A stretch of 56,792 bases of DNA from a virus: the IMG/VR virus record IMGVR_UViG_3300045146_000225, positions 64,001 through 120,792 of that record. The stretch is one strand, 5' to 3'. Every line of letters starts with the position of its first letter. The stretch's first letter is position 1. The notes under the pieces are model-generated. The model worked only from the letters and a program-made list of their open reading frames with translations, ran no database searches and was not told the origin of the DNA. The position numbers and the translations under genes are program-made. Shown piece after piece: positions 10,471 through 23,856 of the stretch.

Positions 10471-10731
10471 ATGCCCAAGTATAGGATGTATCTTGACCGT
10501 AAGGTCGTTTTATGGCAGCGTGATTACCTCAACATAGAGGCTGCTTCTAAGAAAGACGCTCAGAAAGAGATGGAGAAGTTCATAAAGTCTGGTTTGGTTA
10601 ACGACTCTCGGATATTTGATACCGATTTCTCCGATATAGAGAGTGTGGTTGAAGTCGGTGTTGATAACGAACCGACGGTGTTGTTGTATGATTCTGACGG
10701 TAATGAGCTTATTACCAACAGTGAAATGTGA
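10471..10731 (+). CDS. Small 86-aa phage protein, source of the island-edge duplicate
   Basis: A charged protein beginning PKYRMYLDRKVVLWQ and ending with an acidic half. No known domain. A degenerate second copy of its first ~45 codons lies at 11668-11795, exactly at the left edge of the foreign island, so this gene or its sequence was involved in the insertion event. It has its own promoter. Confidence 0.65.
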   Translation: MPKYRMYLDRKVVLWQRDYLNIEAASKKDAQKEMEKFIKSGLVNDSRIFDTDFSDIESVVEVGVDNEPTVLLYDSDGNELITNSEM

Positions 10732-10988
10732 TGGATTGTTCATATTAACCGTCTTTTATATGTAAAGTAAATGATGAAAACAAAGCCATTAAGTATGTGA
10801 CTAAATTTAATACTATACTTGAAAAATGGAAGGAATATTACAGTCGGTTTGAAAAAAAATGACGAGCATGTTGAGAAACATTTCGGCCGGTGGTATAGTT
10901 TGAGCCGTGTGACAAGATGCTCCTACGATGTAGTTGATGTACGTTAAATTAAAAATATATTATTCATGGACATTTAATATTATTAAAA
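10732..10988 (+). other. Intergenic stretch with decayed coding sequence
   Basis: No intact gene. One frame from about 10769 reads VNDENKAIKYVTKFNTILEK and ends KWKEYYSRFEKK-stop, but lacks a start codon. A second short piece (FEPCDKMLL) follows in another frame. This looks like a small gene eroded by stops and shifts. AT-rich sequence (TTAAAAATATATTATT) precedes the next gene. Confidence 0.35.
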
Positions 10989-11600
10989 ATGGCATCAATT
11001 GATAAAACATATATAGACTCTTATAAAGATTATAAAGAGTTTAAAACTTGGGCAGACACCCAGGTGTTGACATTTTTCGATGGACATCAAAAATGTATAG
11101 GTGATTATGTTTGGCTATGCGAGGAAGAAGATTTTGAACATGGTGAGATTCCAATTATGAACACACCGACGTGGCTGGATATCTATCTGATTCAGAATTG
11201 CAAAAGTGAATTCGTCTTAGAACGAATGAAATGTATTTATGGTGATGAGCATTATGAAAAGTTTAAAACTGTTGATTTGACTTCTAAACCACCTGAAACG
11301 TTTAAACGAAAAAGGAAGATTTCTATCACTAAAAGCAAACCAACTAGCTTTGAATTTCATTCGAAACCTTACGGTGGTGGCGCGTGGTGGTTGCAATGTG
11401 ATGGCGATTTCTGGTATAACAGTGATACTAAGAAATGGGTACATCGTGATAGTTATTATCCACGTAATACGAATACTGCACACATAGCGAGCATTAAAGC
11501 ACTCATGAAACATCTAAGGAGACAATATTTACCAGCAGGTGTCGTGTTCACGCTCAAAGGGAGGTATATAGATGAAAATTATACCGTGAGTGTTTATTGA
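10989..11600 (+). CDS. Unknown 203-aa protein
   Basis: ATG at 10989 after an AT-rich leader. The protein is rich in Trp, Tyr and Lys, with a basic middle (KRKRKISITKSK) followed by PYGGGAWWLQCDGDFWYN. No family recognised. Codon use is more AT-rich than the neighbouring replication genes, so it may itself be a recent acquisition. It is the last intact gene before the island. Confidence 0.6.
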   Translation: MASIDKTYIDSYKDYKEFKTWADTQVLTFFDGHQKCIGDYVWLCEEEDFEHGEIPIMNTPTWLDIYLIQNCKSEFVLERMKCIYGDEHYEKFKTVDLTSKPPETFKRKRKISITKSKPTSFEFHSKPYGGGAWWLQCDGDFWYNSDTKKWVHRDSYYPRNTNTAHIASIKALMKHLRRQYLPAGVVFTLKGRYIDENYTVSVY

Positions 11601-11667
11601 TGTTGCTAATTTGTGATTGCGTATGGAAATGGCAACACCTGCTGAATATTAACATAAATGTACGCTG

Positions 11668-11795
11668 GTATAGGATGTATCTTGACCGTAGGGTCGTTTT
11701 TATGGTAGCGTGATTACTTCAACATAGAGGCTGCTTCTAAGAAAGACGATCAAAAAGAGATGGAGAAGTTCATAAAGTCTTGTTTGGTTAACGAC
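11668..11795 (+). pseudogene. Degenerate partial copy of the 10471-10731 gene
   Basis: Bases 11668-11795 closely match 10482 to about 10609 (GTATAGGATGTATCTTGACC and onward to GGTTAACGAC). One extra T and several substitutions break the frame, and the start codon region is altered. The similarity stops abruptly at 11795, where murE-like sequence begins. This marks the left phage-bacterium junction. Confidence 0.8.
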
Positions 11796-11949
11796 CAACT
11801 GTGCTGGCTGCCAAGACACTCACCATCCCGGCGACATCATCCTCGTAGCAGGTAATGGACACGAGACATACCAGGAGGTGAACGGTGTGAAATCGCATTT
11901 CGATGACCGCGAGGTGGTGGTAGAACAATTTAATGGGAAAATTAAATAG
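11796..11949 (+). pseudogene. murE: 3' end of a bacterial murE (UDP-MurNAc-tripeptide ligase)
   Basis: In the frame ending at TAG 11947-11949 the DNA reads [18 protein letters not shown], then a FDDREVV motif and a short tail. This is the conserved C-terminus of MurE, the enzyme that adds the third stem-peptide residue in peptidoglycan synthesis. Only about 50 codons remain, with no start, so the fragment cannot be functional. In bacteria murE precedes mraY in the dcw cluster, and a mraY start occurs at 13225. Confidence 0.82.
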
Positions 11950-11972
11950 TATAGAATAATTCTGAAAACATT

Positions 11973-12746
11973 ATGAATATCAATATACTAACTTGGAATA
12001 TCAACAAAAATGAATCTAAGTCTTTCTATGAGGAATTGCATAAACAACTTCTTATAGATGATATTCATATTGTTGTACTACAGGAGTGTTTTTATGATTT
12101 TTCTTCAAACGAGTTTGCCGAATTTGATGAAACAATCGATTATTTGTCTAAAAAAGGAAGGCGTTCGGTACGCATATTTATTAGAAAGTCAAGCGAATTA
12201 TCAACAAGTGATTTGACATATCATGCTGATGTTGACAACAAATTGGTTTGTATGAAAATTCATACTAAGAGTGGATGTATGTTCAACCTTGCAGGAATTC
12301 ACTTGTACAGTATATCTAATGTCACAAAAGAACAGCAAAACTATCTCAACAGCAAATTTCCTGAACTTATTTTCAGGTACGAGTCACGTATTAAAGAGAA
12401 AAAAACAATTATTGTTGGAGATTTTAACTACGGACCGTTTGATGATTTTTTTCAAAATCCAAAAATGTTTTTCACAAATAGTGATAGACGATTTGTTCGT
12501 CAATTTCCGGAGTTACAAAAGAAAGGAACCATGCGATTGTTTTATAACCCGATGTGGAATTTGGTTGATGGTGTAATTGGTAGTCCAGAGATCATGGATT
12601 GTATAGATGTAGGTTCAATTAAAATACTTGAATCATTAAACGGTAAACCATTAATCAAGCAGAGAATCAATAAATTATCAGAGTCATTTCTAGCAAATGG
12701 CTATTCAGACCATTTACCAGTTTCATTTACACTAAAATTAAATTAA
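11973..12746 (+). CDS. Endonuclease/exonuclease/phosphatase (EEP) family protein
   Basis: A 257-aa protein with the EEP pattern: an N-terminal strand LTWNIN, the metal-binding glutamate in VVLQEC, GDFNYGP with the catalytic Asp/Asn, and a C-terminal SDHLPV with the catalytic His. The family includes DNase I-like nucleases and phosphodiesterases. No signal peptide, so it is cytoplasmic. It is followed 6 bases later by a 140-aa gene, and the pair sits between a murE end and a mraY start, a place where extra genes are unusual. A nuclease with a small partner would fit a defence or toxin module, but that is inference. Confidence 0.8.
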   Translation: MNINILTWNINKNESKSFYEELHKQLLIDDIHIVVLQECFYDFSSNEFAEFDETIDYLSKKGRRSVRIFIRKSSELSTSDLTYHADVDNKLVCMKIHTKSGCMFNLAGIHLYSISNVTKEQQNYLNSKFPELIFRYESRIKEKKTIIVGDFNYGPFDDFFQNPKMFFTNSDRRFVRQFPELQKKGTMRLFYNPMWNLVDGVIGSPEIMDCIDVGSIKILESLNGKPLIKQRINKLSESFLANGYSDHLPVSFTLKLN

Positions 12747-12752
12747 AAAAAT

Positions 12753-13175
12753 ATGGAAAAAGATGTTTGGTTATATGCTGATGGCACAGAAGATACAAGC
12801 AAAACCCCCTATGATTATTTGTTTGATTATTCCTCGAAGCTTGAAAAATTTACAAACGGAGACATTATAGGTGTTGTATCTGAATGGAGACCGGAACGGG
12901 AAAAAGAGGTAATCTATGGATTTACATTAGTTGCTCCAGCGTTAAATAACTACAGTTATAAATTGTTTGAAGTTGTTCAAAAAGATGCTTTTTCTCCATT
13001 TCCCGTAACGATGAGATTGTTTCGTGTAGATACTGAAGCGCCAGAGGAAAAGAATAATGTTTCAGAGCAAGATTTCGAGCAAGAACTAATAAAATTTATC
13101 CAGCATTCTTCAACACGAAGAGCATTAACTGCCTTGAAAACTCTTATTGGAAAAAAAAGACAATACGAGGTGTAG
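12753..13175 (+). CDS. Unknown 140-aa partner of the EEP protein
   Basis: The ATG at 12753 is 6 bases after the EEP gene stop, so the two form an operon. The product is acidic in its first half (DGTEDTSKTPYDYLFDY) and ends in a basic helix (RRALTALKTLIGKKRQYEV). No family recognised. It could be an inhibitor or substrate adaptor for the EEP enzyme. Confidence 0.6.
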   Translation: MEKDVWLYADGTEDTSKTPYDYLFDYSSKLEKFTNGDIIGVVSEWRPEREKEVIYGFTLVAPALNNYSYKLFEVVQKDAFSPFPVTMRLFRVDTEAPEEKNNVSEQDFEQELIKFIQHSSTRRALTALKTLIGKKRQYEV

Positions 13176-13224
13176 GTGTATTTAAAAAAACAGGTTTTTA
13201 TTTCGTAATAAACTCAAAACTACT

Positions 13225-13272
13225 ATGTTGTTCTACTTGTTCGAATTCTTAGAAAAACACCACGTTGCTTGA
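13225..13272 (+). pseudogene. mraY: 5' start of a bacterial mraY
   Basis: ATG at 13225 gives MLFYLFEFLEKHHVA and then a stop. This matches the usual N-terminus of Bacteroidetes MraY (MLYYLF..LEK), the membrane enzyme making lipid I. The similarity ends after ~14 codons, so a junction lies near 13267. It is short, but its position after murE supports the call. It overlaps the TTG of the next ORF by 4 bases. Confidence 0.6.
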
Positions 13273-13499
13273 CCTGCGTTGAAGCAATTGCATTAAAGTA
13301 TGTACATAGAAAAGCTTTAAGCTATTTGATAACTTTAGAGGAAAATGAAGCAAAAAGCGTAAAGGCAAAAATTAAAAGTGGAGATGTAATCTGTCTTGAT
13401 AACGTAATTGTTGCTACGAGTTCTGAATTTGATGAGCTTATCGCTGATTTAAAGAAATTTCAATTATCTGAACGCCATATCAACCGCAGTGTTGTATAA
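13269..13499 (+). CDS. 76-codon ORF, probably a C-terminal fragment
   Basis: The only start available is TTG at 13269, right at the mraY junction, so the frame is likely the tail of a longer gene whose 5' part is lost. The product is helical and charged (ITLEENEAKSVKAKIKSGD, FDELIADLKKFQLSERH). No family recognised. Confidence 0.4.
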   Translation: MTCVEAIALKYVHRKALSYLITLEENEAKSVKAKIKSGDVICLDNVIVATSSEFDELIADLKKFQLSERHINRSVV

Positions 13500-13580
13500 C
13501 GATTGTAGATATGAAACTGTTTCATCGTACAAACCTTAACACGTGATTGCATATATTTTTTATTGATAAAACGTAAAAAT

Positions 13581-13718
13581 ATGCCAAGAGAACGACTTCC
13601 ATTAAAAAGAGAAAACAAAGGTGTTGTGATTGTGAACATCGCTGACATTTTCAGGAATGAAGACATACAGAACGAAGTTATAAGTGCGTGTAAAAAACTA
13701 AAACCACGCAAAAAGTGA
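13581..13718 (+). CDS. Small 45-aa ORF
   Basis: ATG at 13581 follows an A-rich leader (AAAACGTAAAAAT) and runs to TGA 13716-13718. The product is basic at both ends (PRERLPLKRENK; KKLKPRKK) around a hydrophobic core (GVVIVNIADIF). A nucleic-acid-binding role is possible from charge only. Confidence 0.45.
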   Translation: MPRERLPLKRENKGVVIVNIADIFRNEDIQNEVISACKKLKPRKK

Positions 13719-13938
13719 TGATATTTTTAAATACATAACTCTATGGTTAAATACGAACACGACGGTTAAACAGTTTCGTGGTTGTATAATATCATAAAAA
13801 AAATTATCATTGATATTATAAAATAATCGTATATTTGTGTGTTGTTTCTTTACACCTATGGTTTTAAAAATATCGTTTTTAAAATCACTAGAAACATGTA
13901 TTGGATACGCAGTTTTAGTTAGTATTAACATATTTAAT
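13719..13938 (+). other. Gap with a promoter and an ORF cut by an insertion element
   Basis: A good promoter lies at 13810-13837 (TTG, 17-base spacer, TATATTTG). An ATG at 13858 then opens a frame (MVLKISFLKSLETC...) that enters the left end of IS30-type copy 1 and stops there at 13951-13953. I read this as a small gene whose 3' part was lost when the element inserted. Nothing else is visible here. Confidence 0.4.
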
Positions 13939-14370
13939 CTTAGATTCAAGTAGTAAATGCAACTTTGTGAAGGGTAATAAAAATCAAATATATCCATCAA
14001 AACAAAGATGGTAAGAAATTACCGCTTTGTCTTGATGGATATATTTGCTAAATTGCCCCCTAAGTCTCCCAAAACAAGTTGCGCTTTGGATCATATAACC
14101 GAACAACAAAGGTATCAAATTTCTTGTTTAGTACAAGCAGGGAAATCTCAGACTGAGATAGCTCAGCTAAAATGAGAATATGAATGGCTTGATTCGGTAG
14201 TATTTTCCCGAGAAACCATCTTTTGAAAATATCACTGATGAGGATATTAAGCGTGTTAAGGATAAACTTAATACACGACCGCGAAAAAAAACATAAATTT
14301 TCTTCGTACATTTAATTTTTAAATTATAAATTTGCACTTACTAAAGTTGCATTTGCAGCTTGAATCCGCC
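13939..14370 (+). mobile_element. IS30-type remnant, copy 1 (keeps HTH end)
   Basis: Ends are imperfect inverted repeats: GATTCAAGTAGTAAATGCAA at the left and its near reverse complement ending GCTTGAATC plus CCGCC at the right. Inside, one frame reads ITEQQRYQISCLVQAGKSQT, the N-terminal helix-turn-helix of IS30 transposases. The C-terminal end follows (NENMNGLIR, FENITDEDIKRV, NTRPRKK) with stops and a large central deletion removing the DDE core. It cannot encode an active transposase. A strong hairpin (13986-14007 with 14025-14046) lies inside this copy only. Confidence 0.8.
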
Positions 14371-14427
14371 AAGGATTAACTATCGAACAAGCGAACAAAG
14401 CTATCGAGGTGCTTTTTTACGGTTGCA

Positions 14428-14484
14428 CCTAACGGTGGGGCTAAACCGTCGTTTTAATGCGGTTTTAGCCCGTGGTAGTAGCCG
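14428..14484 (+). repeat. attC-like palindrome 0 (short)
   Basis: CCTAACGGTGGGGCTAAACC pairs with GGTTTTAGCCCGTGGTAG. The R'' half (GCACCTAACGG) belongs to a cassette whose start was lost at IS30 copy 1. The R' side (GTAGTAGCC) opens cassette 1 and matches the R'' of attC 1 (GGCTACTAAC) except for one base. Confidence 0.6.
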
Positions 14485-14512
14485 TTTTTTATTCATCTTT
14501 TAATTGATTTAT

Positions 14513-15136
14513 ATGATAGTATTGATAACACACGAAGAAAGCCAAACAGTAATGGAAGCGTTTTTAAATGCTGGACATGACGCATATAGTTGTGATTTAT
14601 TACCACCAAGCGGAAAGTACCCAGATAGACATTTACAAATAGATTGCTTTGAAGCAATAGAACTTATTAAGCCAGACTTTTTAGGGATGCACCCTGAATG
14701 CACGAGGTTAACAGTTGCAGCGAATAAGTATTATAAGCCTGAATATGCTGAACGCTTCCCAAATATACACGAACAAAGAGCCGAAGCAGTTGAACACTTT
14801 TTGAAATGTGCGGAAGCATTAGTGAAAGTTGGTAAAGGTTATATTGAAAACCCGATAGGGATAATGAGTAAACTCTATAAAAAGCCCACTCAAATAATAC
14901 AACCTTACCAATTTGGACATAAAGAACGCAAAAGCACTTGCTTATGGATTGAAGGATTATCAAAATTACAACCTACAAATATTGTAGAACCTGACATTAT
15001 AGTACATAAAAGCGGAAGAACTGACAGTAGATTGCACTATGAAACATTTAAGCTACCAAAAGAAGAACGAAGAAAAGCCCGTTCAAAAACCTTTACCGGA
15101 ATTGCCGAAGCGATGGCGTTGCAGTGGGGTTCTTAA
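14513..15136 (+). CDS. C5-cytosine methyltransferase-like protein (cassette 1)
   Basis: A 207-aa protein; the start is taken at ATG 14513. The N-terminal strand-loop LITHEESQTVMEAFLNAGHD and SCDLLPPSG resemble the SAM-binding start of small phage-type cytosine methylases. HPECTRLTVA stands where these enzymes have the PC catalytic cysteine, and IENPIGIMSK matches the ENP motif. It is shorter than typical C5 methylases and lacks a clear target-recognition domain. As a lone cassette gene it could protect DNA from restriction. The alternative is a related non-methylating protein. Confidence 0.6.
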   Translation: MIVLITHEESQTVMEAFLNAGHDAYSCDLLPPSGKYPDRHLQIDCFEAIELIKPDFLGMHPECTRLTVAANKYYKPEYAERFPNIHEQRAEAVEHFLKCAEALVKVGKGYIENPIGIMSKLYKKPTQIIQPYQFGHKERKSTCLWIEGLSKLQPTNIVEPDIIVHKSGRTDSRLHYETFKLPKEERRKARSKTFTGIAEAMALQWGS

Positions 15137-15144
15137 AATGGCTA

Positions 15145-15273
15145 CTAACGGTTGCAGGTATGGTTAGTGGCGGATTTGAAACCACAGACCTATCAAGCAG
15201 TACAAAAGTAAATGAATAGTAGAAATTTAATATTAACCACAGCACCCGCCATTAACTATACATATTGTTATGG
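15145..15273 (+). repeat. attC-like site 1
   Basis: CTAACGG opens and TTGTTATGG closes an imperfect palindrome whose arms are ATGGTTAGTGGCGG and CCGCCATTAACTAT. Its R'' (GGCTACTAAC) is the reverse complement, with one mismatch, of the first bases of cassette 1, the pairing expected for one excisable cassette. Confidence 0.75.
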
Positions 15274-15297
15274 TTTCGTGCTTTAATTCAAATAATT

Positions 15298-15591
15298 ATG
15301 ACAATTCAATTTTATTTAAACAACGAAGAAGAAACTCACATATACTCTTTGTATGATATGAGTTCAAATCCATTTAAAATCGGTGATGTTATTAATTTAT
15401 CGGTTGATGATATTCCTCCAGTAAAATTAAAAGAATATAAGCCTGAATTTGCTAAAAAACTTGTCGAAGATAATAAGCAACAAAGAGCGATGTTTCATAA
15501 TAAAAAAATTAAAATTATTCATGAATGGAAATATATCGACATTGAAAGTGATATATTTACCATTGAATATCATTGCGATTTGGTTTCTTAG
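15298..15591 (+). CDS. Unknown 97-aa cassette protein (cassette 2)
   Basis: ATG at 15298 follows an AT-rich leader after the attC core. The protein is acidic at the N-terminus (NNEEETHIYSLYD) with beta-type segments and a basic middle (HNKKIKIIHEW). No family recognised. It lies between two attC-like sites in the cassette orientation. Confidence 0.6.
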   Translation: MTIQFYLNNEEETHIYSLYDMSSNPFKIGDVINLSVDDIPPVKLKEYKPEFAKKLVEDNKQQRAMFHNKKIKIIHEWKYIDIESDIFTIEYHCDLVS

Positions 15592-15598
15592 TATGAAT

Positions 15599-15730
15599 CA
15601 TAACGGTCGGGTGTAGCACAAGTAAGGGATTGCGGAGTGCGAACCTATCAAACTACACAGACATAAAAGCGGACTACAATGCTTCAAAATTGTAGCAACC
15701 CCTTATTGGTGCTACACTTTGTTAGCCACC
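15599..15730 (+). repeat. attC-like site 2
   Basis: Arms GTGTAGCACAAGTAAGGG and CCCCTTATTGGTGCTACAC form a long imperfect stem, bounded by CATAACGG and TTTGTTAGCC. R'' (GAATCATAAC) pairs with the start of cassette 2 (GTTATGGTTTC) with one mismatch. Confidence 0.8.
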
Positions 15731-15768
15731 GTATTTTATTGAATGTTATACTTTTAAATTATAAAAAT

Positions 15769-16077
15769 ATGTACACAAAAACTGAAAACAAATGGAGATA
15801 TTCGCAGGAATATCAAGAAGTAACTACCAGCAAAGATGGTATAATTGAAGGTTCAAAATCAATATGTGCAATTTCAACTTTTGACAAATCAAAAGAAGAA
15901 ATAGAATCAAATGGAAAACTTATTTCTGCTGCTCCTGAAATGTTTGAAGCATTAAAAAGAGTTGAAGCATATTTAGTAGCAAATGAAGATGTTTTAGCAC
16001 CATTTCCAACTCGAAGTGAGTTAGATAATATTCGTGCGGCAATGTTTAAAACGGGGCTGTACCAATATGGTGGCTAA
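15769..16077 (+). CDS. Unknown 102-aa protein, sister of the 19273 gene (cassette 3)
   Basis: The start is at ATG 15769 after an A-rich leader. The C-terminal half contains NGKLISAAPEMFEALKRVEA, a motif common in small phage and mobile-element proteins of unknown function, which recurs as AKLVSTAPELLEACQRALEV in the ORF at 19273. The N-terminal half is hydrophilic. The two sister genes carry nearly identical attC sites, so the cassette seems to have been duplicated and then diverged. Confidence 0.65.
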   Translation: MYTKTENKWRYSQEYQEVTTSKDGIIEGSKSICAISTFDKSKEEIESNGKLISAAPEMFEALKRVEAYLVANEDVLAPFPTRSELDNIRAAMFKTGLYQYGG

Positions 16078-16148
16078 CTTACTTATATGCGTACCAAAGG
16101 TACGTATATACTACAGACGTTTGTTGTATATGCGTACCTTTTGTTGCC
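16071..16148 (+). repeat. attC-like site 3 (twin of site 10)
   Basis: Bounded by GTGGCTAACTTAC and CTTTTGTTGCC, with arms AAGGTACGTATATA and TATATGCGTACCTT. R'' (GGTGGCTAAC) is the exact reverse complement of the first ten bases of cassette 3 (GTTAGCCACC). Most of its sequence is repeated at 19564-19640. An IS30-type remnant follows within ten bases. Confidence 0.8.
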
Positions 16149-16155
16149 TAATATA

Positions 16156-16457
16156 GCTTAGATTCAAGTAGTAAATGCAACTTTGGGAATGGTAATAAAA
16201 ATCAAATGTTTTTCAAAACAAAGGGGTAATTTCTTACCATTCATGGGAACGTGGAACAAATGAGAATATGAATGGCTTGATTCGGCAGTATTTTCCCAAG
16301 AAATCATCTTTTGGAAATATTACTGATGAGGATATTAAGCGTGTTAAGGATAAACTTAATACGCGACCGCGAAAAAAAACATAAATTTTCTTTGCATATT
16401 GAATTTTTAATTATAAATTTGGACTTGCTAAAGTTGCATTTGTAGCTTGAATCCGCC
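16156..16457 (+). mobile_element. IS30-type remnant, copy 2
   Basis: A 302-base element from GCTTAGATTC to GAATCCGCC with the same imperfect terminal repeats as copies 3 and 4. It encodes only the transposase tail (WERGTNENMNG, ITDEDIKRVKDKLNTRPR) with frame damage. Non-autonomous, MITE-like. Confidence 0.85.
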
Positions 16458-16463
16458 TTTGTT

Positions 16464-16618
16464 GTTAGCAAATCGTTTTAATGTTTGCTAACGGTTTGGC
16501 GGTATGAAACGGCAGGGATTAAGTGTGAAACTCTATCAGCCGAAACGAATGATGAATAGTAGCACAACGGTTAATTACGGCACATCAGCCCTGCTGTTTT
16601 ATACCGCTTGTTAGGGGC
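16464..16618 (+). repeat. ORF-less cassette with attC-like site 4
   Basis: GTTAGCAAA at 16464 is followed after only ~11 bases by TTTGCTAACGG, its reverse complement, then an attC palindrome (GGCGGTATGAAACGGCAGGG with CCCTGCTGTTTTATACCGC) ending TTGTTAGGGG. The matching ends show a complete cassette with no gene. Confidence 0.7.
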
Positions 16619-16637
16619 TGGTATTTATACAAATTTT

Positions 16638-16904
16638 ATGAATTTTTCTCAAGCATTAGAAAGCCTAAAATTAGGTAGTAAAGTTCAGCGTGGAGGCTGG
16701 AATGGTAAAGGAATGTATATTTTCCTTATCGGTACAGATTTGTCAAAAGTCGGCACAGGTGGATGGACTTACACAAATGGAGTAAACGATAATTATGAAT
16801 TACTTCCATTTATTGCAATGAAAACAGCCGATGAAAAAGTTGTTCCGTGGCTGGCTTCTCAAACAGATATTTTAGCAGAGGATTGGTGTATTCTTTTAGG
16901 CTAA
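16638..16904 (+). CDS. tad2: DUF2829 / Tad2-like anti-Thoeris candidate (cassette 4)
   Basis: An 88-aa protein; the ATG at 16638 is chosen because homologues begin MNFxxALExLKxG. It has the family signatures KVQRGGWNGKGMYIFL, PFIAMKTADEKVVPWLASQT and a C-terminal LAEDWCIL. DUF2829 includes Tad2, a phage protein that binds and sequesters the cyclic ADP-ribose-type signal of Thoeris defence. Length and motifs match well; activity is inferred. It is carried as a single-gene cassette between two attC-like sites. Confidence 0.85.
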   Translation: MNFSQALESLKLGSKVQRGGWNGKGMYIFLIGTDLSKVGTGGWTYTNGVNDNYELLPFIAMKTADEKVVPWLASQTDILAEDWCILLG

Positions 16905-16937
16905 ATTATCAAATGGGGTATGCCGTCTTATGCTTGT

Positions 16938-17069
16938 CCCTAACGAATGGCGGTATGGGCAGTTGGGGATTAGAAACCACTACACTATCCGCAAGTATAA
17001 ACTTAATAAAATGCAGAAATGATAAATGAACAGATAATACCCCAATTGCCTATGCCCGCTTGTTATGCA
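16938..17069 (+). repeat. attC-like site 5
   Basis: Arms CGGTATGGGCAGTTGGGG and CCCCAATTGCCTATGCCCG, bounded by CCCTAACG and TTGTTATGCAC. R'' (GTCCCTAAC) nearly pairs with the start of cassette 4 (GTTAGGGGC). The start codons of the next methylase lie inside this site. Confidence 0.75.
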
Positions 17070-17825
17070 CAGGTTATTTTAGGCGATTGCTTGGAGTTGT
17101 ATAAAAATATTGAACCTAAAAGCATAGACTTAATTTTAACCGATTTGCCTTATGGTACGACTGCGTGTAAATGGGACACTATAATTCCATTTGATAAACT
17201 TTGGGAAATGGTAAATTACTTACTAAAACCAAATGGAACATTTATTACAACAGCTTCACAACCTTTTACAAGTGCTTTAGTAATGAGTAACCCGAAAATG
17301 TTTAAGTATGAGTGGATTTGGGATAAAGTGCAACCTACTGGGGCATTTAATGCAAGCAAACAACCAATGAAGTTACATGAAAATATATTAGTGTTTTATA
17401 ATAACCAGCCTATTTATAATAGGCAAATGACAGATAGACCGCTAAAGGATTTAAGACCAAACCAAATAAAAACTACAAAAGAATTGGATAGGGTTGAATA
17501 TGAATATTTAGGAGGACAAAAGAAACAGTATTCATCAAATTGGGATTACACAAAAGTAAATCCGAAAACAATTATTCAGTTTCAAAAATCTGCCGAAAGA
17601 TTTAAAGAATTTAAACACCCCACCCAAAAACCAGTAGCATTATTTGAGTACCTACTTAAAACATACAGTAATGAAGGAATGACAATATTTGACCCTTGTA
17701 TGGGTTCTGGAACAACTGGAGTAGCATGTAAAAATCTAAACCGAAACTTCATCGGAATAGAAAAAGACGAGAACTATTTCAAAATAGCAGAGCAGCGAAT
17801 AAATGCACGGACGCTGTTTTCTTAA
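17019..17825 (+). CDS. Beta-class DNA N4/N6 methyltransferase (cassette 5)
   Basis: A 268-aa methylase with the beta-class order: catalytic motif IV DLPYGTTACKWD (D42) first, then KHPTQKPVALFEYL and SAM-binding motif I FDPCMGSGTTGVA (F224). The core is complete. The first ATG (17019) and a second (17052) both fall inside the preceding attC-like site; the conserved part begins at VILGDCLEL. No nuclease partner is next to it, so it is probably an orphan modification enzyme that could shield DNA from restriction. Dam/DpnA-like relatives are the closest that I recognise. Confidence 0.9.
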   Translation: MINEQIIPQLPMPACYAQVILGDCLELYKNIEPKSIDLILTDLPYGTTACKWDTIIPFDKLWEMVNYLLKPNGTFITTASQPFTSALVMSNPKMFKYEWIWDKVQPTGAFNASKQPMKLHENILVFYNNQPIYNRQMTDRPLKDLRPNQIKTTKELDRVEYEYLGGQKKQYSSNWDYTKVNPKTIIQFQKSAERFKEFKHPTQKPVALFEYLLKTYSNEGMTIFDPCMGSGTTGVACKNLNRNFIGIEKDENYFKIAEQRINARTLFS

Positions 17826-17830
17826 CTTGT

Positions 17831-17926
17831 GCATAACGGGCGAGTGTAGCCATCAGTAGGCTAACGCACCGACCTGTTAATTTAGTAATAACTTTCCGCC
17901 TATTGTGGCTACACTTTGTTAGCAAC
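17831..17926 (+). repeat. attC-like site 6
   Basis: Arms GAGTGTAGCCATCAGTAGG and CCTATTGTGGCTACACTTT between GCATAACGG and TTTGTTAGCAAC. R'' (GTGCATAAC) is the exact reverse complement of the first bases of cassette 5 (GTTATGCAC). Confidence 0.85.
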
Positions 17927-17948
17927 TTGGCGGGTAAAATAGAACGAA

Positions 17949-18161
17949 ATGACAATAGAAAACATTAAAAAAGAGATGCTAAAATACCGTGATTTTTACG
18001 GTGGCAATTTGCTTGAAGTAGGCGAAATCGAAAATGCAACTACAAAAGAAGAGCTTGAAAAAATTATTGAAAACCATAGAAGCCACATGGAAGCAATGTT
18101 AAGTGACGCTAATGGGCATCTCGATAATTTGAAAAGGAAATGCAAGTTAGGGTACTGTTAG
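17949..18161 (+). CDS. Unknown 70-aa helical protein (cassette 6)
   Basis: ATG at 17949. The product is almost wholly helical and charged (NATTKEELEKIIENHRSHME), ending in a Lys/Cys-rich tail (KRKCKLGYC). No family recognised. It is flanked by attC-like sites 6 and 7 in cassette orientation. Confidence 0.6.
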   Translation: MTIENIKKEMLKYRDFYGGNLLEVGEIENATTKEELEKIIENHRSHMEAMLSDANGHLDNLKRKCKLGYC

Positions 18162-18167
18162 TAGCCT

Positions 18168-18268
18168 TGTTGCTAACGTTCGAGGCTATGAGTAGTGCAG
18201 CCTTTCAAACCGTATCAATTTAGCACTACATTAAGTGGCTGCATTACTTATAGCCTTTGTTAGCCACA
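18168..18268 (+). repeat. attC-like site 7
   Basis: Arms GAGGCTATGAGTAGTGCAGCC and GGCTGCATTACTTATAGCC, bounded by TTGCTAACG and TTTGTTAGCCAC. R'' (GTTGCTAAC) is the exact reverse complement of the start of cassette 6 (GTTAGCAAC). Confidence 0.85.
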
Positions 18269-18301
18269 TGTTTTTATTAATCATTTTAAAATTAAATAGA
18301 T

Positions 18302-18646
18302 ATGAGTACAATTTCAATTAATGGTAATACTTATTCAGGCAATAGTATTGTAGTGATAAATGGAAAAGTTATTGTAAATGGCAATGATGTTACACCTGAT
18401 AGTAAGGAAATAAACATTAAAGTTGATGGGAATATTAACAAATTAGAAGTTGATGCTTGTAATAAAGTAGAAATTACTGGAGATGTTTCAAGTATTAAAA
18501 CACAAAGCGGAGATGTTGAAATTACGGGAAATGTTACTGGTTCAATTCAAACAATGTCAGGCGATGTTGATTGTGGAACAGTCGAGGGTTCAATTTCAAC
18601 AATGAGTGGTGATATTAAGCACAAGCGTTCTCAAACTTGTGGCTAA
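18302..18646 (+). CDS. Beta-repeat 114-aa protein (cassette 7)
   Basis: The protein is a run of short beta-type repeats (SGDVEITGNVTGSIQTMSGD, then VEGSISTMSGD), resembling the DUF4097-like or adhesin-type beta-helix ladders, after an N-terminal ISINGNTYSGNS motif. No signal peptide is visible. The stop codon TAA is part of the R'' core of the following attC-like site, a common arrangement in tightly packed cassettes. Confidence 0.65.
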   Translation: MSTISINGNTYSGNSIVVINGKVIVNGNDVTPDSKEINIKVDGNINKLEVDACNKVEITGDVSSIKTQSGDVEITGNVTGSIQTMSGDVDCGTVEGSISTMSGDIKHKRSQTCG

Positions 18647-18774
18647 CGTTACGTATATGGTAAGTTGGGGGATAGAATGCACAAACCTATCAACTTGCAA
18701 GAACTAAATAAATTGTGCTAATATAACAAGTTGGAACGACACCCCCAATTTGCTATATACATTGTTAGGGTGCG
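18640..18774 (+). repeat. attC-like site 8
   Basis: Arms TATATGGTAAGTTGGGGG and CCCCCAATTTGCTATATA, bounded by GTGGCTAACG and ATTGTTAGGGTGC. R'' (GTGGCTAAC) is the exact reverse complement of the start of cassette 7 (GTTAGCCAC). Confidence 0.85.
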
Positions 18775-18789
18775 TTTATTTTTATCAAA

Positions 18790-19095
18790 ATGGAAAATTA
18801 CACACGAGTAAGAGTAGAATTAGATGTTATGGCTCAAAAATTAATTAGTCAATACATGATTAATAATGAACGAATTGAAAAAGATATTGAAGCTGGGATA
18901 AACCGAGCTTTTGAAACAATTGACTTAGAAAAAGAAGTTGAACGCTCCGTTAAAAATGCTATTGAAAAAGCAATAAAAGATTCCTCGGAATGGGGTAAAA
19001 TTCGAGATGCTGTAAAAAAGAAAACCGATGAAATTGTCGAAAGTTATATTGAAAAATCAATTTCTAAATTTAGACAGGATTTTCAAACGGAGTAA
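18790..19095 (+). CDS. Unknown 101-aa helical protein (cassette 8)
   Basis: ATG at 18790. The protein is strongly helical and charged throughout (FETIDLEKEVERSVKNAIEK, then KKKTDEIVESYIEKS), likely a coiled coil. No family recognised. The attC-like sites on both sides match its cassette ends. Confidence 0.6.
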   Translation: MENYTRVRVELDVMAQKLISQYMINNERIEKDIEAGINRAFETIDLEKEVERSVKNAIEKAIKDSSEWGKIRDAVKKKTDEIVESYIEKSISKFRQDFQTE

Positions 19096-19106
19096 AGTGT
19101 TTAAAT

Positions 19107-19244
19107 GCACCCTAACGGTGTCGCAGCTATGCAATGTGCGGGTGTACGAAGTGCTTTCGTATCCCACGTTACAGAACTTAGCTACGAGCTGAAAAGATTG
19201 CGTTTGCAGCACCCCGCATAGTGTATAGGTGCTGTTATAAACAG
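19107..19244 (+). repeat. attC-like site 9
   Basis: Arms GTCGCAGCTATGCAATGTGC and CATAGTGTATAGGTGC and an inner CGGGGT/CGGGTG pairing lie between GCACCCTAACGG and CTGTTATAAAC. R'' (GCACCCTAAC) is the exact reverse complement of the start of cassette 8 (GTTAGGGTGC). Confidence 0.8.
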
Positions 19245-19272
19245 GCTTTTATTAACTTTCTAAATATAAATT

Positions 19273-19560
19273 ATGAAAAAAGAAAAACACACAGAAGGAA
19301 ATTGGAAATATAGACCAGATATAGTAGGCAATAGTTTTTATATTGAAACGGTTGACCAATCTCACGATAGAACATTTATTGGGGAAATAGGTGGAGGACT
19401 TCAATCTAAAATAGAAATTGAAGCTAATGCAAAACTTGTATCTACCGCACCCGAACTTTTAGAAGCATGTCAACGAGCTTTAGAAGTTTTTGAATCTGAA
19501 AATATAACAGGACAAGCAAGATTGTTGCTGGCAGTCGCTATCAAAAAGGCGGTTTTTTAG
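19273..19560 (+). CDS. Unknown 95-aa protein, sister of the 15769 gene (cassette 9)
   Basis: ATG at 19273. It contains HTEGNWKYRPDIVGNSFY and AKLVSTAPELLEACQRALEV. The second motif is shared with the cassette 3 protein, and both resemble small ubiquitous phage proteins of unknown function. Its attC-like site is nearly identical to that of cassette 3 and is likewise followed by an IS30-type remnant. Confidence 0.65.
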   Translation: MKKEKHTEGNWKYRPDIVGNSFYIETVDQSHDRTFIGEIGGGLQSKIEIEANAKLVSTAPELLEACQRALEVFESENITGQARLLLAVAIKKAVF

Positions 19561-19563
19561 CTT

Positions 19564-19640
19564 GTTTATAACTTACGTATATGCGTACCAAAGGTACGTA
19601 TATACTACAGACGTTTGTTGTATATGCGTACCTTTTGTTG
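19564..19640 (+). repeat. attC-like site 10 (twin of site 3)
   Basis: R'' (GTTTATAAC) is the exact reverse complement of the start of cassette 9 (GTTATAAAC). The palindrome ATATGCGTACCAAAGGTACG to TTGTATATGCGTACCTTTTG repeats that of site 3 almost base for base. Confidence 0.8.
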
Positions 19641-19642
19641 CC

Positions 19643-19942
19643 CTTAGATACAAGCAGTAAATGCAACTTTGGGAAGGGTAATAAAAATCAAATGTTTTCA
19701 AAACAAAGGGGTAATTTCTTACCCTTCATGGGAACGTGGAACAAATGAGAATATGAATGGCTTGATTCGGCAGTATTTTCCCGAGAAACCATCTTTTGAA
19801 AATATCACTGATGAGGATATTAAGCGTGTTAAGGATAAACTTAATACGCGACCGCGAAAAAAACATAAATTTTCTTCGCACATTGAATTTTTAAATTATA
19901 AATTTGCACTTGCTAAAGTTGCATTTGCAGCTTGAGTCCGCC
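19643..19942 (+). mobile_element. IS30-type remnant, copy 3
   Basis: About 300 bases with left end CTTAGATACAAG (one change from the other copies) and right end CTTGAGTCCGCC. This copy keeps an open frame (from 19669) for the transposase tail (WERGTNENMNGLIRQYF through LAKVAFAA) but lacks the HTH and DDE core. It directly abuts a truncated gene at 19943. Confidence 0.85.
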
Positions 19943-20062
19943 TTGGCTAATCTTGTAACCACTTTGCGCGAAGAAGATAAACTTTGCATCATTAACACAG
20001 GCGATGAAGAACACCGAGAACCACAAATTATTTGTTCAATGGGATTAACTAATGTTCAATAA
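19943..20062 (+). pseudogene. C-terminal fragment of a gene upstream of the type IIG-like methylase
   Basis: Immediately after IS30 copy 3 an open frame reads LANLVTTLREEDKLCIINTG, continues EEHREPQIICSMGL and stops at 20060-20062, 2 bases before the methylase start. The 5' part is missing at the element. The tight spacing suggests the lost gene was in an operon with the methylase; a helicase partner would be typical, but the 39 residues do not prove it. Confidence 0.5.
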
Positions 20063-20064
20063 GT

Positions 20065-23000
20065 ATGGCTAAGTTAAATATAGAAAATACACGAAAAGCA
20101 TTACAGTCATTCGACTTTAAAACCTTGTTTATTGAGGAATTGGGATGGAGTAACCCTTCTTCTTCGAAAGTAATTAATGAAACGATAAAGGATATTGTTA
20201 TAATTCGTAAACCCATTGCCGAATTGAGCGGTGCTGTGGTTTTTGAGATTACAACACCAACTGGTATTGTTCCCGAACCAAAAGAACGGGCAGCGATTGC
20301 AAAAGAAATACAAAAACAGCATTTTGAACATGTTTTGATTTTTGTTGACAGCGACCGTAAACAAAGCATTTGGTACTGGCTGAAACATCAGGACAAAAAA
20401 CTGTTGAGTAGGGAGCATTTTTATTTCCGACACCAACCAGGCGATGTGTTTATTGCCAAAATAGCCTCTTTGGTTGTTGACATAAGTGAATTCGACCGTG
20501 AAGGGAATATTGCTATTGCCGAAGTAGCAAGCCGTATAAAATCGGCTTTGGATATCGAACGGGTGGTTAAAAAATTCTTCCGCGAATACCAACAGGAATA
20601 TATTGTTTTTCTCGACCTTATCGAAGGCATTGACAATGAAGCCGACCGCCGCTGGTATGCATCGGTTATCCTTAACAGGCTCATGTTTATATATTTTCTA
20701 CAAAAGAAATTGTTTGTTGACAATGCTAACGCTAACTACCTTAACAGCAAACTTGAATTCTCGAAAAAAGAACTGGGTAAAAACAAATTTTACGAGGTTT
20801 TCTTAAGTAAATTGTTTTTCGAAGGTTTTGCCAAAAACGAAAGCCAGCGAAGCCCCGAAACCAATAAGCTGATAGGTAAGATTAAATACCTTAATGGTGG
20901 CTTGTTCATGAAACATAAAATTGAGATAAAGTACGATGGTAAAATAAAAATTGCTGACGAAGCATTTGTAACCATATTCGATTTATTCGACCGTTACAGC
21001 TGGACATTGAACGATACGCCCGGTGGTGCCGACAACGAAATGAACCCCGATGTACTTGGTTATATTTTTGAAAAATACATTAACCAAAAAGCATTTGGGG
21101 CATATTATACACGAACAGAGATTACCGAATACCTCTGCGAACAAACGGTTTATAAACTTATTCTTGATGCTATAAATGAACCCGAAATCGACCCTGAATT
21201 ATTTAAAAAAACAGGCTTGGATAAATTTGGAAACCCCAAACGTTACGATTCTATAGCTGAACTTTTACTGAACCTCGATGCTGCCAATTGCAAAAAGTTG
21301 GTTATGGGCGATGATGCTATTTTGCCAAACCTTAGTTTGCTCGACCCTGCCTGTGGTTCGGGTGCATTTTTGGTGGCAGCTATGAAAACGCTTATTAACG
21401 TATATGCTGTCGTGCTGGGCAAAATTGATTTTCTGGGCGATAAAAAGCTAACCGAATGGAAACAACAAATTGAAACCGACCACCCGAGCATTAACTATTA
21501 CATTAAAAAACAAATTATTACCAACAACCTGTATGGGGTTGACCTGATGGAGGAAGCTACCGAAATAGCCAAACTACGCCTGTTCCTTGCATTAGTGGCA
21601 AGTGCCGACACGGTTGACCAGTTGGAACCCCTGCCCAATATTGTTTTTAATATAATGAATGGCAACTCGCTTATAGGATTGATGCGGGTTGATGCCGGAA
21701 GATTTGAAAAACATCAGGGACAAAACCTCTTCCGTAAAAGTTATGCCGACTTGTTACGTGAAAAAAACATTGCTATTCAGTTGTACAAAAACCCGAAAGG
21801 TATTGACGATATACAACTGTTGAAAAACAATATTGAACGCCACCGCGAGGAAGTCATACCCATTCTCGACGATATGCTCATGAACGAGTTTGGAAACCTT
21901 GGTATTAAATATGAACAGATAACCTGGGACGAGAATAAAAACAAGGAAGGCAAGCCCGTTAAACGCAGCCTGAACATTAACGACATAAAAGCTCTTGAAC
22001 CTTTCCATTGGGGTTACGAGTTTTCTGAAATTTTCAGGAAAAAGGACGGGTTTGATGCTATTATTACAAATCCACCTTGGGAGGTGTTTAAACCAAACTC
22101 AAAAGAGTTTTTTCTTGCCTACTCAAATATTGTTTCGAGAAAAAGAATGAGCATTAAAGATTTTGAGCAGGAACAGGAAAAAATTTTACAAGACCAGGAA
22201 ATAAAAGAAGCATGGATAAATTATTTAAGCAGCTATCCCCATGTGAGTTCATATTTCAGAAGTGCAAAGCAATTCGAAAATCAAATATCAATAGTTAATG
22301 GTAAAAAAGCTGGTTCGGATATAAACCTTTACAAACTTTTCACAGAGCAATGTTTTAATTTGTTAAGGAAAGGTGGTTATAGTGGAATTGTTATACCAAG
22401 TGGAATTTATACTGATTTAGGTACAAAGCAATTACGAAAATTATTATTTGAACAAAATAAAGTAACAGGCTTGTTCTGTTTTGAAAACCGTAAAGAAATT
22501 TTTGAGGGTGTTCACCGTAGCTTTAAATTTGTTGTTTTAAGTTTTGAGAAAGGAGGGAACACTAAATCATTCCCTGCTGCTTTTATGCGCCACGATGTGG
22601 ATGAATTAACTAGCTTTCCAAAATATGGAGCTTCGGAGATAAGTCTTAATTTTATCACAAAACAAAGTCCTGAAAGTCTTTCAGTTACAGAAGTGAAAAA
22701 TGATATTGATTTTAGTATTTTACAAAAAACCATATCATTCCCCTTTGTAAGTGACAAAATATATGGCACATGGAACATTGAGTTGGGTAATGAATTTCAC
22801 ATGACAAACGATAGTAAAATATTTTTAACAAAACCAGATAAGAACGCATTCGCATTATATGAGGGTAAAATGATATGGCAATTTTATCATAGATATAGCG
22901 AACCAAGATATTGGATTAATGAAAATACGGGAAGGAAGTCAATTTTAGGTAAGCAAAAAGATGATGGTCAGATTTTAAATTATCAAAATTATAGACTTGC

Positions 23001-23544
23001 ATTTAGGGATATAACTTCACCAACAAATGAGCGGTCGATGATTAATACAATTGTTCCCAAAAATATCTTTGCCGGTAATACTCTTGTTTTATCAAAAAAC
23101 AATATTTCATCAGCAGATTTGTTATGTATTACTTCATTTTTAAATGGATATACAAATGATTATTTAATTCGTCAAAAAATTACTTCACACTGTAATTTAT
23201 TTTATGTCTATCAACTTCCCGTACCTCGCCTCAAACCCACCGACAAATGGTTCAAGCCTATTATTGAACGTGCAGCCAAACTTATTTGCACCACCGAAGA
23301 ATATGCCGATTTATGGGAAGAAACCATGCAAACCAAATGGAGCGAAAAAGTTGCAGCAACCAATGAATATGAACGTAACAAACTACGGGCAGAACTTGAT
23401 GGCATTATTGCCCATATTTACGGGCTTACCGAAGAAGAATTTACTTACATTTTAAGTACATTTCCTATTGTACCACAACCACAGAAAGTGGCAGTACAGA
23501 ATGCTTATAGGGATGTGATAAATGGGTTTATTAAACCTGAATAA
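20065..23544 (+). CDS. Type IIG-like restriction-modification / Eco57I-type methylase
   Basis: A 1159-aa protein. SAM-binding motif I is LLDPACGSGAFLVAAM (D427) and catalytic motif IV is AIITNPPWEVF (N669), the gamma-class adenine methylase order. The ~200-residue gap between them, and a long C-terminal half that would recognise DNA (…NLFYVYQLPVPRLKPTD), match Eco57I/type IIG-like and phage-defence methylases. The N-terminal ~200 residues may hold a nuclease-like domain, but I see no certain PD-ExK motif. The start is ATG 20065. It is complete, although its upstream partner is truncated, so any multi-gene defence system here is probably broken. Confidence 0.82.
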   Translation: MAKLNIENTRKALQSFDFKTLFIEELGWSNPSSSKVINETIKDIVIIRKPIAELSGAVVFEITTPTGIVPEPKERAAIAKEIQKQHFEHVLIFVDSDRKQSIWYWLKHQDKKLLSREHFYFRHQPGDVFIAKIASLVVDISEFDREGNIAIAEVASRIKSALDIERVVKKFFREYQQEYIVFLDLIEGIDNEADRRWYASVILNRLMFIYFLQKKLFVDNANANYLNSKLEFSKKELGKNKFYEVFLSKLFFEGFAKNESQRSPETNKLIGKIKYLNGGLFMKHKIEIKYDGKIKIADEAFVTIFDLFDRYSWTLNDTPGGADNEMNPDVLGYIFEKYINQKAFGAYYTRTEITEYLCEQTVYKLILDAINEPEIDPELFKKTGLDKFGNPKRYDSIAELLLNLDAANCKKLVMGDDAILPNLSLLDPACGSGAFLVAAMKTLINVYAVVLGKIDFLGDKKLTEWKQQIETDHPSINYYIKKQIITNNLYGVDLMEEATEIAKLRLFLALVASADTVDQLEPLPNIVFNIMNGNSLIGLMRVDAGRFEKHQGQNLFRKSYADLLREKNIAIQLYKNPKGIDDIQLLKNNIERHREEVIPILDDMLMNEFGNLGIKYEQITWDENKNKEGKPVKRSLNINDIKALEPFHWGYEFSEIFRKKDGFDAIITNPPWEVFKPNSKEFFLAYSNIVSRKRMSIKDFEQEQEKILQDQEIKEAWINYLSSYPHVSSYFRSAKQFENQISIVNGKKAGSDINLYKLFTEQCFNLLRKGGYSGIVIPSGIYTDLGTKQLRKLLFEQNKVTGLFCFENRKEIFEGVHRSFKFVVLSFEKGGNTKSFPAAFMRHDVDELTSFPKYGASEISLNFITKQSPESLSVTEVKNDIDFSILQKTISFPFVSDKIYGTWNIELGNEFHMTNDSKIFLTKPDKNAFALYEGKMIWQFYHRYSEPRYWINENTGRKSILGKQKDDGQILNYQNYRLAFRDITSPTNERSMINTIVPKNIFAGNTLVLSKNNISSADLLCITSFLNGYTNDYLIRQKITSHCNLFYVYQLPVPRLKPTDKWFKPIIERAAKLICTTEEYADLWEETMQTKWSEKVAATNEYERNKLRAELDGIIAHIYGLTEEEFTYILSTFPIVPQPQKVAVQNAYRDVINGFIKPE

Positions 23545-23554
23545 TGGAAAGATT

Positions 23555-23856
23555 GCTTAGATTCAAGTAGTAAATGCAACTTTGGGAATGGTAATAAAAA
23601 TCAAATATTTTTCAAAACAAAGGGGTAATTTCTTACCCTTCATGGGAACGTGGAACAAATGAGAATATGAATGGCTTGATTCGGCAGTATTTTCCCGAGA
23701 AATCATCTTTTGAAAATATTACTGATGAGGATATTAAGCGTGTTCAGGATAAACTTAATACGCGACCACGAAAAAAACATAAATTTTCTTCGTACATTGA
23801 ATTTTTAAATTATAAATTTGCACTTACTAAAGTTGCATTTGCAGCTTGAATCCGCC
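23555..23856 (+). mobile_element. IS30-type remnant, copy 4
   Basis: A 302-base element from GCTTAGATTC to GAATCCGCC, starting 10 bases after the type IIG-like gene and ending 6 bases before leuS. Same transposase tail and terminal repeats as copies 2 and 3, with scattered substitutions. Confidence 0.85.

Follow-up and report, generated by a model that had tools for sequence, protein, structure and literature searches.

The window analysed here, 56,792 nucleotides of viral DNA (positions 64,001 to 120,792 of IMG/VR record IMGVR_UViG_3300045146_000225), contains a row of single-ORF units that all point the same way, with an imperfect palindrome framed by TAAC and GTT between neighbours (14,426–19,645). 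It raises the question of how a phage could carry and exchange gene cassettes when its record shows no gene for an enzyme to move them. The record is an incomplete contig of 120.8 kb from which genes may be missing; no recombinase related to the family described below was found in it, in agreement with a sequence-only reading that had seen excisable cassettes without a recombinase gene. Here we report that the window very probably carries two short integron-like cassette arrays of a kind native to the Bacteroidia, lodged in a MITE-bounded island of a huge Bacteroidales phage and served by a host recombinase in trans.

Anatomy of the cassette arrays

The analysis confirmed the cassette array as real. 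The sequence-only reading had described nine units in a single array, each followed by an imperfect palindrome. The shared orientation, the TAAC/GTT boundaries and the extent of the row all held, but a MITE (copy 2) at 16,158–16,457 (+ strand) interrupts it, so that there are two arrays, and each palindrome belongs to the next ORF. Nor are the palindromes uniform: they comprise eight attC bodies, a degraded body at 14,434 and two near-identical elements of a different type at 16,076 and 19,570. The latter were rejected as attC sites; they represent an attI-like end, whose motif is fused to the last R'' in arrays, and mark where an array ends.

All array features lie on the + strand. The first array opens with the degraded attC body (14,426–14,484), in which, as read from the sequence, R'' is CACCTAAC and R' is altered to GGTAGTAGCC in place of GTTAGTAGCC. 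Cassette 1 (14,434–15,149; ORF 14,504–15,136) encodes a predicted DNA methyltransferase (phrog_757, E 1.6e-55) and shares 81% DNA identity over 619 b with a cassette of Flavobacterium phage mymlan6-1. The remaining cassettes each consist of an attC body, located by a covariance model (R1) built from window-type sites, and an ORF. Cassette 2 (15,150–15,604; R1 site 15,140–15,276; ORF 15,298–15,591) is without an assigned product, and cassette 3 (15,605–16,078; R1 site 15,595–15,730; ORF 15,769–16,077) matches phrog_1273. The attI-like terminal site 1 (16,076–16,151), consisting of AACTTACTTATATGCGTACC plus an inverted repeat, closes the array.

Beyond the interrupting MITE lies what reads as a micro-cassette remnant devoid of an ORF (16,464–16,492; GTTAGCAAA ... 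TTTGCTAAC), followed by cassette 4 (16,493–16,944; R1 site 16,483–16,619; ORF 16,638–16,904), whose Tad2-like product (PF11195, E 6e-27) is predicted to counter Thoeris defence. Cassette 5 (16,945–17,837; R1 site 16,935–17,071; ORF 17,019–17,825) encodes a predicted N6_N4 DNA methylase (E 3.6e-33) and its ORF starts within its own attC body; the predicted products of the window cassettes thus include two methyltransferases and one Tad2-like protein. Cassettes 6 (17,838–18,177; R1 site 17,828–17,927; ORF 17,949–18,161) and 8 (18,648–19,116; R1 site 18,638–18,773; ORF 18,790–19,095) have no assigned product, cassette 7 (18,178–18,647; R1 site 18,168–18,268; ORF 18,302–18,646) matches phrog_3163 and cassette 9 (19,117–19,572; R1 site 19,107–19,243; ORF 19,273–19,560) again phrog_1273; a phrog_1273 cassette searched against phage records was unmatched. 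The array terminates at a second attI-like site with the same motif (19,570–19,645). Further cassettes are present in the same virus record at 35.2–36.7 kb and 52.7–53.1 kb, one of them in the phage backbone without a MITE. With at least two attC sites and no intI, the record falls within the definition of a phage-borne attC cluster.

The match between the R' and R'' of each unit, which the sequence-only reading had regarded as the signature of gene cassettes, withstood permutation. Contiguous matches of 6, 10, 3, 7, 10, 9, 10, 10 and 10 bases, the shortest belonging to the MITE-interrupted unit, add up to 75, against a permuted mean of 45 and maximum of 73; none of 200,000 permutations reached 75. 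In each cassette R'' is situated just 3' of the ORF and pairs with the R' of that same unit, so that an excised circle would restore the hairpin site. The R' cores (GTTATGG, GTTAGCC, GTTAGGG, GTTATGC, GTTAGCA and GTTATAA) depart from GTTRRRY without exception, as had been noted.

In a set of ten sites, eight from the window and two from elsewhere in the record, the named attC pairs form in 92.8% of cases, and two-sided changes number 47 compared to 14.5 in shuffles and 5–12 when the sites are slid. This strong covariation indicates that hairpin structure rather than sequence is conserved. Folded single strands are the presumed recombination substrate; a point against is that one window site, at 15,140–15,276, folds poorly as bottom-strand DNA. 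The window gave no match with Rfam or ARAGORN.

Cassette movement and polarity

One and the same cassette occurs in three genomes with 98–100% identity in the body and 97–98% in the ORF; the neighbours share 56–70%. Virulent Muminvirus isolates (Flavobacterium phages) are 99.9% identical apart from exact single-cassette indels, whose ends fall precisely on unit boundaries at TAAC with only ~7 b of shared sequence. Because the body travels with the downstream ORF both in these genomes and in the phage indels, each palindrome is assigned to that ORF, and assignment to the preceding one was rejected. It follows that the ORFs point at attI, the opposite of classical cassettes. An attC-like structural model accommodates the sites, and in relatives the units occur in varied contexts with exact gain or loss; these are the two points on which the sequence-only reading had proposed to be judged.

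Sites and recombinase across the Bacteroidia

R1 sites occur in 255 of 395 Bacteroidia genomes, and a tyrosine recombinase family lacking the IntI patch in at least 196 of the 395 (best eight candidates per genome). Sites and recombinase co-occur with an odds ratio of 9.4 (p 8e-22; 395 genomes, shared ancestry ignored). The recombinase lies on the 3' side of the array in 20 of 20 cases, and all four recombinase loci picked without regard to sites proved to have them. In phage and bacterial arrays alike the attI-like motif is fused to the last R'', and in hosts it mostly lies 99–116 b from the recombinase gene. Bacterial arrays show a 9–10-base R'/R'' match in 53 of 64 consecutive pairs (mean 8.8, versus 4.4 for random pairs). 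At the strict cut-off, 84 of the 255 site-bearing genomes have no recombinase match among their best eight candidates, and 25 of the 196 recombinase-bearing genomes have no detected site; draft genomes and the limit to eight candidates may explain these mismatches, but another enzyme may be involved. No member of the family was found in the phage records searched.

The catalytic R-K-HxxR-H-Y residues are present in an alignment of 24 family members. The array-linked recombinases score 186–208 bits on TIGR02249, and the patch insertion is absent from their alignment; true IntI (TIGR02249 above 265 bits, with the insertion) was detected in one of the 395 genomes, in which no R1 site reaches the cut-off. 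On NF040815, the XerA/integron-integrase group, one member (L225) scores 230 bits and passes the curated cut-off of 220, whereas three others score 213, 217 and 200. The best structural matches are IntI4 (2a3v) and XerA (4a8e). An additional conserved N-terminal domain, and the link to cassette arrays found here, set the family apart from that group; the domain shows weak similarity to DUF5710 (9 of 18 members, best E 0.0017), a weak lead to HARP 4o66 (Foldseek E 1.2) and no VIA match with Z of at least 5. We infer that this family catalyses cassette movement.

A MITE-bounded island in a phage backbone

The arrays are part of a larger island. Its left edge is a full IS30-family MITE of ~430 b (copy 1, 13,940–14,370, + strand), recognised by inverted terminal repeats and homologous copies and including a transposase C-terminal fragment among its ORFs; the outer left end adjoins phage sequence. 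Following the arrays on the + strand are MITE copy 3 (19,644–19,942), a large restriction-modification-type methyltransferase protein (20,065–23,544; TIGR02987/PglX-like, below cut-offs), MITE copy 4 (23,557–23,856), an intact bacterial leucyl-tRNA synthetase (23,863–26,643; TIGR00396, 948 bits) with its nearest relative in Carboxylicivirga at ~71% identity, and an Eco57I/PglX-like methyltransferase (26,724–28,238). The right edge is a truncated MITE left end of ~37 b (28,317–28,353, − strand), the outer end of which adjoins phage sequence. Both edges therefore bear the same element end in inverted orientation, the arrangement looked for in an IS30 composite island; reading the two edges revealed no direct repeat as a target-site duplication, and the exact MITE end is absent from the genome and viral collections searched.

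Phage genes flanking the island on both sides are colinear with two 250-kb relatives. These were reached via known relatives, the viral-contig search having returned none for two phage-flank proteins, and the cassette-site model gave no match with E ≤ 1 in their ~506 kb. A right-flank 30-mer retrieved no independent contig across the island junction. A 25.8-kb contig with an identical capsid begins, judged by capsid position, near 37.7 kb of the window and so would not reach the island.

Alternative origins of the arrays

The arrays could be a classical integron remnant (CALIN), much as the sequence-only reading had it, with IntI-type cassettes whose integrase was lost or never carried and which IntI would move in trans. 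The cassette logic is identical and phage CALINs have been published (PMC9892861), among them that of Polaribacter phage P12002L, whose attC2 was recombined by IntI1 in E. coli. R1 detects sites in P12002L too, which may or may not be the tested ones. Only this one published experiment has addressed phage sites that may be related, and its enzyme was IntI1, so IntI-type enzymes may also act on them. Nevertheless, we consider a classical remnant very unlikely: true IntI is almost absent from the hosts and does not coincide with R1 sites, the arrays are adjoined by a different, patchless recombinase family, the ORFs point at the attI-like site and no R' fits the classical core.

Slightly less probable still are inert repeats, with units shifted by homologous or illegitimate recombination and no dedicated recombinase. 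Bodies of the same lineage are similar enough for recombination, yet exact TAAC boundaries with so little shared sequence in otherwise near-identical phages, the per-cassette R'/R'' match, the two-sided pair changes and a recombinase at near-constant distance from a shared site are not expected of passive repeats. An assembly chimera, in which repeated MITEs joined bacterial cassette DNA to phage DNA, strikes us as the least credible account. The island does hold bacterial genes such as that for LeuRS, its bounding repeats occur several times in the record and the searches yielded no independent junction-spanning contig; against this stand the colinear flanks, edges that carry one MITE end, oppositely oriented, with a right copy of ~37 b, unlike simple one-repeat mis-joining, the cassette in the backbone and the same kind of array in isolated phages.

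Phage arrays served by a Bacteroidia-native system thus remain our preferred reading. Each cassette pairs a single attC-like body with the ORF downstream of it, and the bacterial host array terminates at an attI-like site beside a tyrosine recombinase related to IntI and XerA. During infection this host enzyme most likely acts in trans, cassettes being cut out and inserted at TAAC/GTTA; the phage, presumably using the host enzyme, would retain sites only. For the phage, the cassettes would amount to a stock of predicted counter-defence genes open to exchange, whose products may act against host defences.

Relation to known systems and significance

The system resembles IntI integrons, both mobile and sedentary chromosomal, in its single-ORF cassettes, R'/R'' matching, hairpin attC with R and L arms, long co-oriented arrays and an attI-like insertion end adjoining a tyrosine recombinase. 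It differs in the patchless recombinase with its extra N-terminal domain, in attC bodies 5' of ORFs that face attI, in the divergent cores and, in the sites studied here, in an L stem whose 4-bp step is flanked by two invariant mismatches (G.T at the top, C.A at the bottom). The phage CALINs of Qi et al. (2023; PMC9892861; TJE1, P12002L, PH101) are likewise integrase-less attC clusters in virulent phages with methyltransferase cassettes, but they were described as classical attC and not tied to a Bacteroidia recombinase family, an attI-like end or reversed polarity, and the main text leaves Flavobacterium unmentioned. In the inverted-intI integrons of Treponema (PMC3607928) the recombinase gene is transcribed towards attI, as in most arrays here; however, the Treponema enzyme is a true IntI, and the cassette genes there share the direction of intI and lead away from attI, whereas those described here lead towards it.

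IntegronFinder 2 recorded one complete integron in the Bacteroidota, in Salinibacter (PMC9024848), and integrons are thought to be near-absent there. According to passages of PMC8138268, the insertion is not conserved throughout the integron-like YR subgroup; a description of such arrays was not found in those passages. An integron-like Bacteroidia system with its own recombinase family seems to be undescribed in the literature searched, in which no paper on such a cassette system was found (open-licence papers, bioRxiv being outside the scope, hence weak evidence). We think it likely that the Bacteroidia possess a class-wide integron analogue, with a patchless IntI/XerA-like enzyme, an attI-like site and a 5' attC, tapped by virulent phages that swap counter-defence genes.

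If this is true for more than half of the Bacteroidia, a major pathway for exchanging genes has gone unnoticed, and the system would offer a natural comparison for hairpin recombination without the IntI patch. Methyltransferase and Tad2-like phage cassettes would render counter-defence genes modular and exchangeable. Plating differences among Muminvirus isolates track a methyltransferase (PMC7077304), which makes the question directly testable in cultured virulent phages.

Cassette arrays in the phage record

The window corresponds to positions 64,001–120,792 of a virus record 120,792 bases long. Between positions 14,426 and 19,645 it carries co-oriented single-ORF units, with palindromes bounded by TAAC and GTT lying between them. 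The sequence-only reading had claimed that the arms R′ and R″ match cassette by cassette, and this is borne out: contiguous matches of each R′ to its own R″, summed over the units, amount to 75 bases, which exceeds the maximum of 73 (mean 45) obtained in 200,000 permutations. Ten sites, eight of them in the window and the other two outside it but in the same record, can be aligned to a common plan. After the TAAC/GTTA pairing come three stems, of 6, 4 and 6 base pairs, with a fixed mismatch (G/T on the top strand) at each of the two breaks between them. The named pairs form in 92.8% of the cells of this alignment, and two-sided changes number 47, compared with 14.5 after shuffling and 5–12 after sliding by 1–3 columns. 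When rebuilt as in an excised circle most sites form a closed hairpin on both strands; the site at 15,140–15,276 forms none on the bottom strand.

The cassette products include a phrog_757 methyltransferase, a Tad2-like protein (PF11195, 6e-27), an N6_N4 methylase, two copies of phrog_1273 and one of phrog_3163, while three lack any assignment. Along 619 bases the phrog_757 gene has 81% DNA identity with one from Flavobacterium phage mymlan6-1. Judged by these family names, a role in counter-defence is predicted.

Phage backbone and island

The capsid protein of the record shares 31–34% identity with Prevotella Lak megaphages and about 48% with IMG/VR phages, several of 250–270 kb; across most of its length the record is colinear with two IMG/VR relatives. 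The arrays lie in an island (13,940–28,353) with an exonuclease gene to its left (7269–8357) and an SbcC-like gene to its right (32478–35042); in the relatives only about 1.6 kb separates the counterparts of these two genes. MITE copies start at 13,940, 16,158, 19,644 and 23,557, and a truncated MITE left end at 28,317–28,353 is inverted, so that both island edges show the same end outward. The MITEs are a plausible vehicle of the island; no target-site duplication was found for them. Apart from cassettes the cargo comprises a large methyltransferase-type protein and an Eco57I/PglX-like methyltransferase. A full-length bacterial leucyl-tRNA synthetase is also encoded in the island (23863–26643; nearest Carboxylicivirga, about 71%).

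Beyond the window array the record has a second cassette region at 35.2–36.7 kb and a lone cassette at 52.7–53.1 kb, the latter within phage backbone and free of any MITE. A simple assembly chimera, in which bacterial arrays had been joined to phage sequence, is disfavoured by this backbone cassette together with the arrays of isolated phages described below.

Several further features were noted, the ORFs among them being named by eye. Window 36935–38119 and L010 13603–14805 hold a near-identical pair of IS605 OrfB/TnpB-like ORFs with a zinc-finger motif. The second island of the record, on locus L011, encodes a restriction-modification-like ORF of 1054 aa (11541–14705), adjoined by a Dam-like ORF (9939–10847). 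Also on L011, an NAD-dependent DNA ligase-like ORF (7741–9768) immediately precedes the MITE end that lies at 29,786 of the record. An ORF with internal repeats at window 49509–49865 resembles a leucine-rich-repeat surface protein. The phage sequence also contains a 128-base direct repeat, 95% identical (window 10479–10605 and 11668–11795).

Cassette turnover in isolated phages

R1, the covariance model built from the ten sites, has eight or more hits in mymlan6-1 (Muminvirus), where they lie among genes for methyltransferases and hypothetical proteins, and it also detects sites in Polaribacter phage P12002L. Some R1 hits in phages are weak singly and are supported by their position and R′/R″ matching. 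In mymlan6-1 five of the seven consecutive site pairs match at 10 of 10 positions. Qi et al. reported an attC cluster in P12002L and observed recombination by IntI1 at one of its sites (PMC9892861), which may differ from the R1 sites. Six of 15 viral contigs, chosen by a 17-base core, also carry R1 sites. A phage-labelled IMG/VR contig of 47.9 kb (L300) bears an array of about a dozen, all on one strand, at 3104–10542. The two relatives of the record, together about 506 kb of sequence, gave no R1 match at E ≤ 1.

Closely related isolates differ by whole units. Mumin6-1 and mumin6-3 are 99.89% identical apart from one 506-base unit, and filifjonk9-1 and mumin6-1 are 99.99% identical apart from units of 1581 and 412 bases. 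The 506- and 1581-base units have TAAC at start and end; the 412-base unit is bounded at CTTATAAC and is the 3′-terminal one of its array. The phages compared here are virulent, and the poorer plating of some on strain LMO6 tracks the absence of one methyltransferase (PMC7077304).

Arrays and polarity in Bacteroidia

Integrons have been reported to be nearly absent from Bacteroidetes (PMC9024848). Among 395 Bacteroidia genomes, many of them drafts and not independent of one another, R1 matched at least 255 at E ≤ 0.001, with scores of up to 108 bits (eight candidates scored per genome; E-values rough). The fetched loci are long arrays with sites on the same strand; that of G121 has 14 within one 20-kb stretch and three more in the next. 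A curated integron integrase model exceeded its cut-off in a single genome, G166, which is outside the 255. Near its IntI locus (L306, G166:C40) the best R1 score is a weak 17 bits.

In the bacterial arrays the mean match between an R′ and the next R″ is 8.8 bases, and random pairs give 4.4. One cassette is common to three genomes: the body preceding the ORF is 98–100% identical and the ORF 97–98%, whereas identity falls to 56–70% in the flanks and in the body that follows the ORF. Another, shared by two genomes, has an attI-like site after it in one and an attC body in the other. The body therefore belongs to the ORF downstream, and the ORFs face the attI-like site. This overturns the earlier definition of the unit as an ORF followed by its palindrome, and the order of body and ORF is opposite to that of classical cassettes.

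At the end of the array the last R″ is fused to a common attI-like motif, AACT[TA][GA][TC]TTATA, after which an inverted repeat follows in many arrays. In most, a convergently oriented recombinase gene has its 3′ end 99–116 bases from the motif.

A patchless recombinase at the arrays

Searching array-adjacent ORFs with tyrosine recombinases yielded four arrays with such an enzyme nearby. These proteins can be aligned to IntI but are missing the patch insertion. The integron model (cut-off 265) gives them 186–208 bits and the XerA/integron-integrase model (cut-off 220) 200–230 bits; the nearest structures to one that was predicted are IntI4 (2a3v) and XerA (4a8e). The catalytic residues are common to 24 members, as is an N-terminal domain of 60 residues in which W38, S39 and W45 are invariant. 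Fold and family comparisons of this domain gave weak leads, DUF5710 in nine of 18 members (best E 0.0017) and HARP 4o66 (Foldseek E 1.2), and no VIA match with Z of 5 or above. Larger relatives of 482–677 aa (L197, L198, L199) seem, by eye, to repeat this domain.

A profile search places the family in 196 of the 395 genomes, 171 of which also have sites (odds ratio 9.4, p 8e-22, ignoring shared ancestry). In all 20 genomes where sites and recombinase gene share a contig, the gene lies 3′ of the array, and four of four loci selected by recombinase only had sites, on the same side. No family member was found in the 120,792 bases of the phage record, and the attI-like motif occurs in the window palindromes at 16,076 and 19,570 and in three further places in the record; hence the phage retains the attI-like end and, within this record, no recombinase of the family.

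Treponema integrons likewise have intI transcribed toward attI, but they encode a true IntI and their cassette genes run away from attI (PMC3607928). We found no prior description of the Bacteroidia system in the open-licence library searched. From its association with the arrays and its position there, the host patchless recombinase is on the best reading the enzyme that would act on phage DNA in trans, excising and inserting cassettes at TAAC/GTTA. New cassettes would, again on the best reading, join at the attI-like end, as the 412-base insertion at the end of the array suggests.
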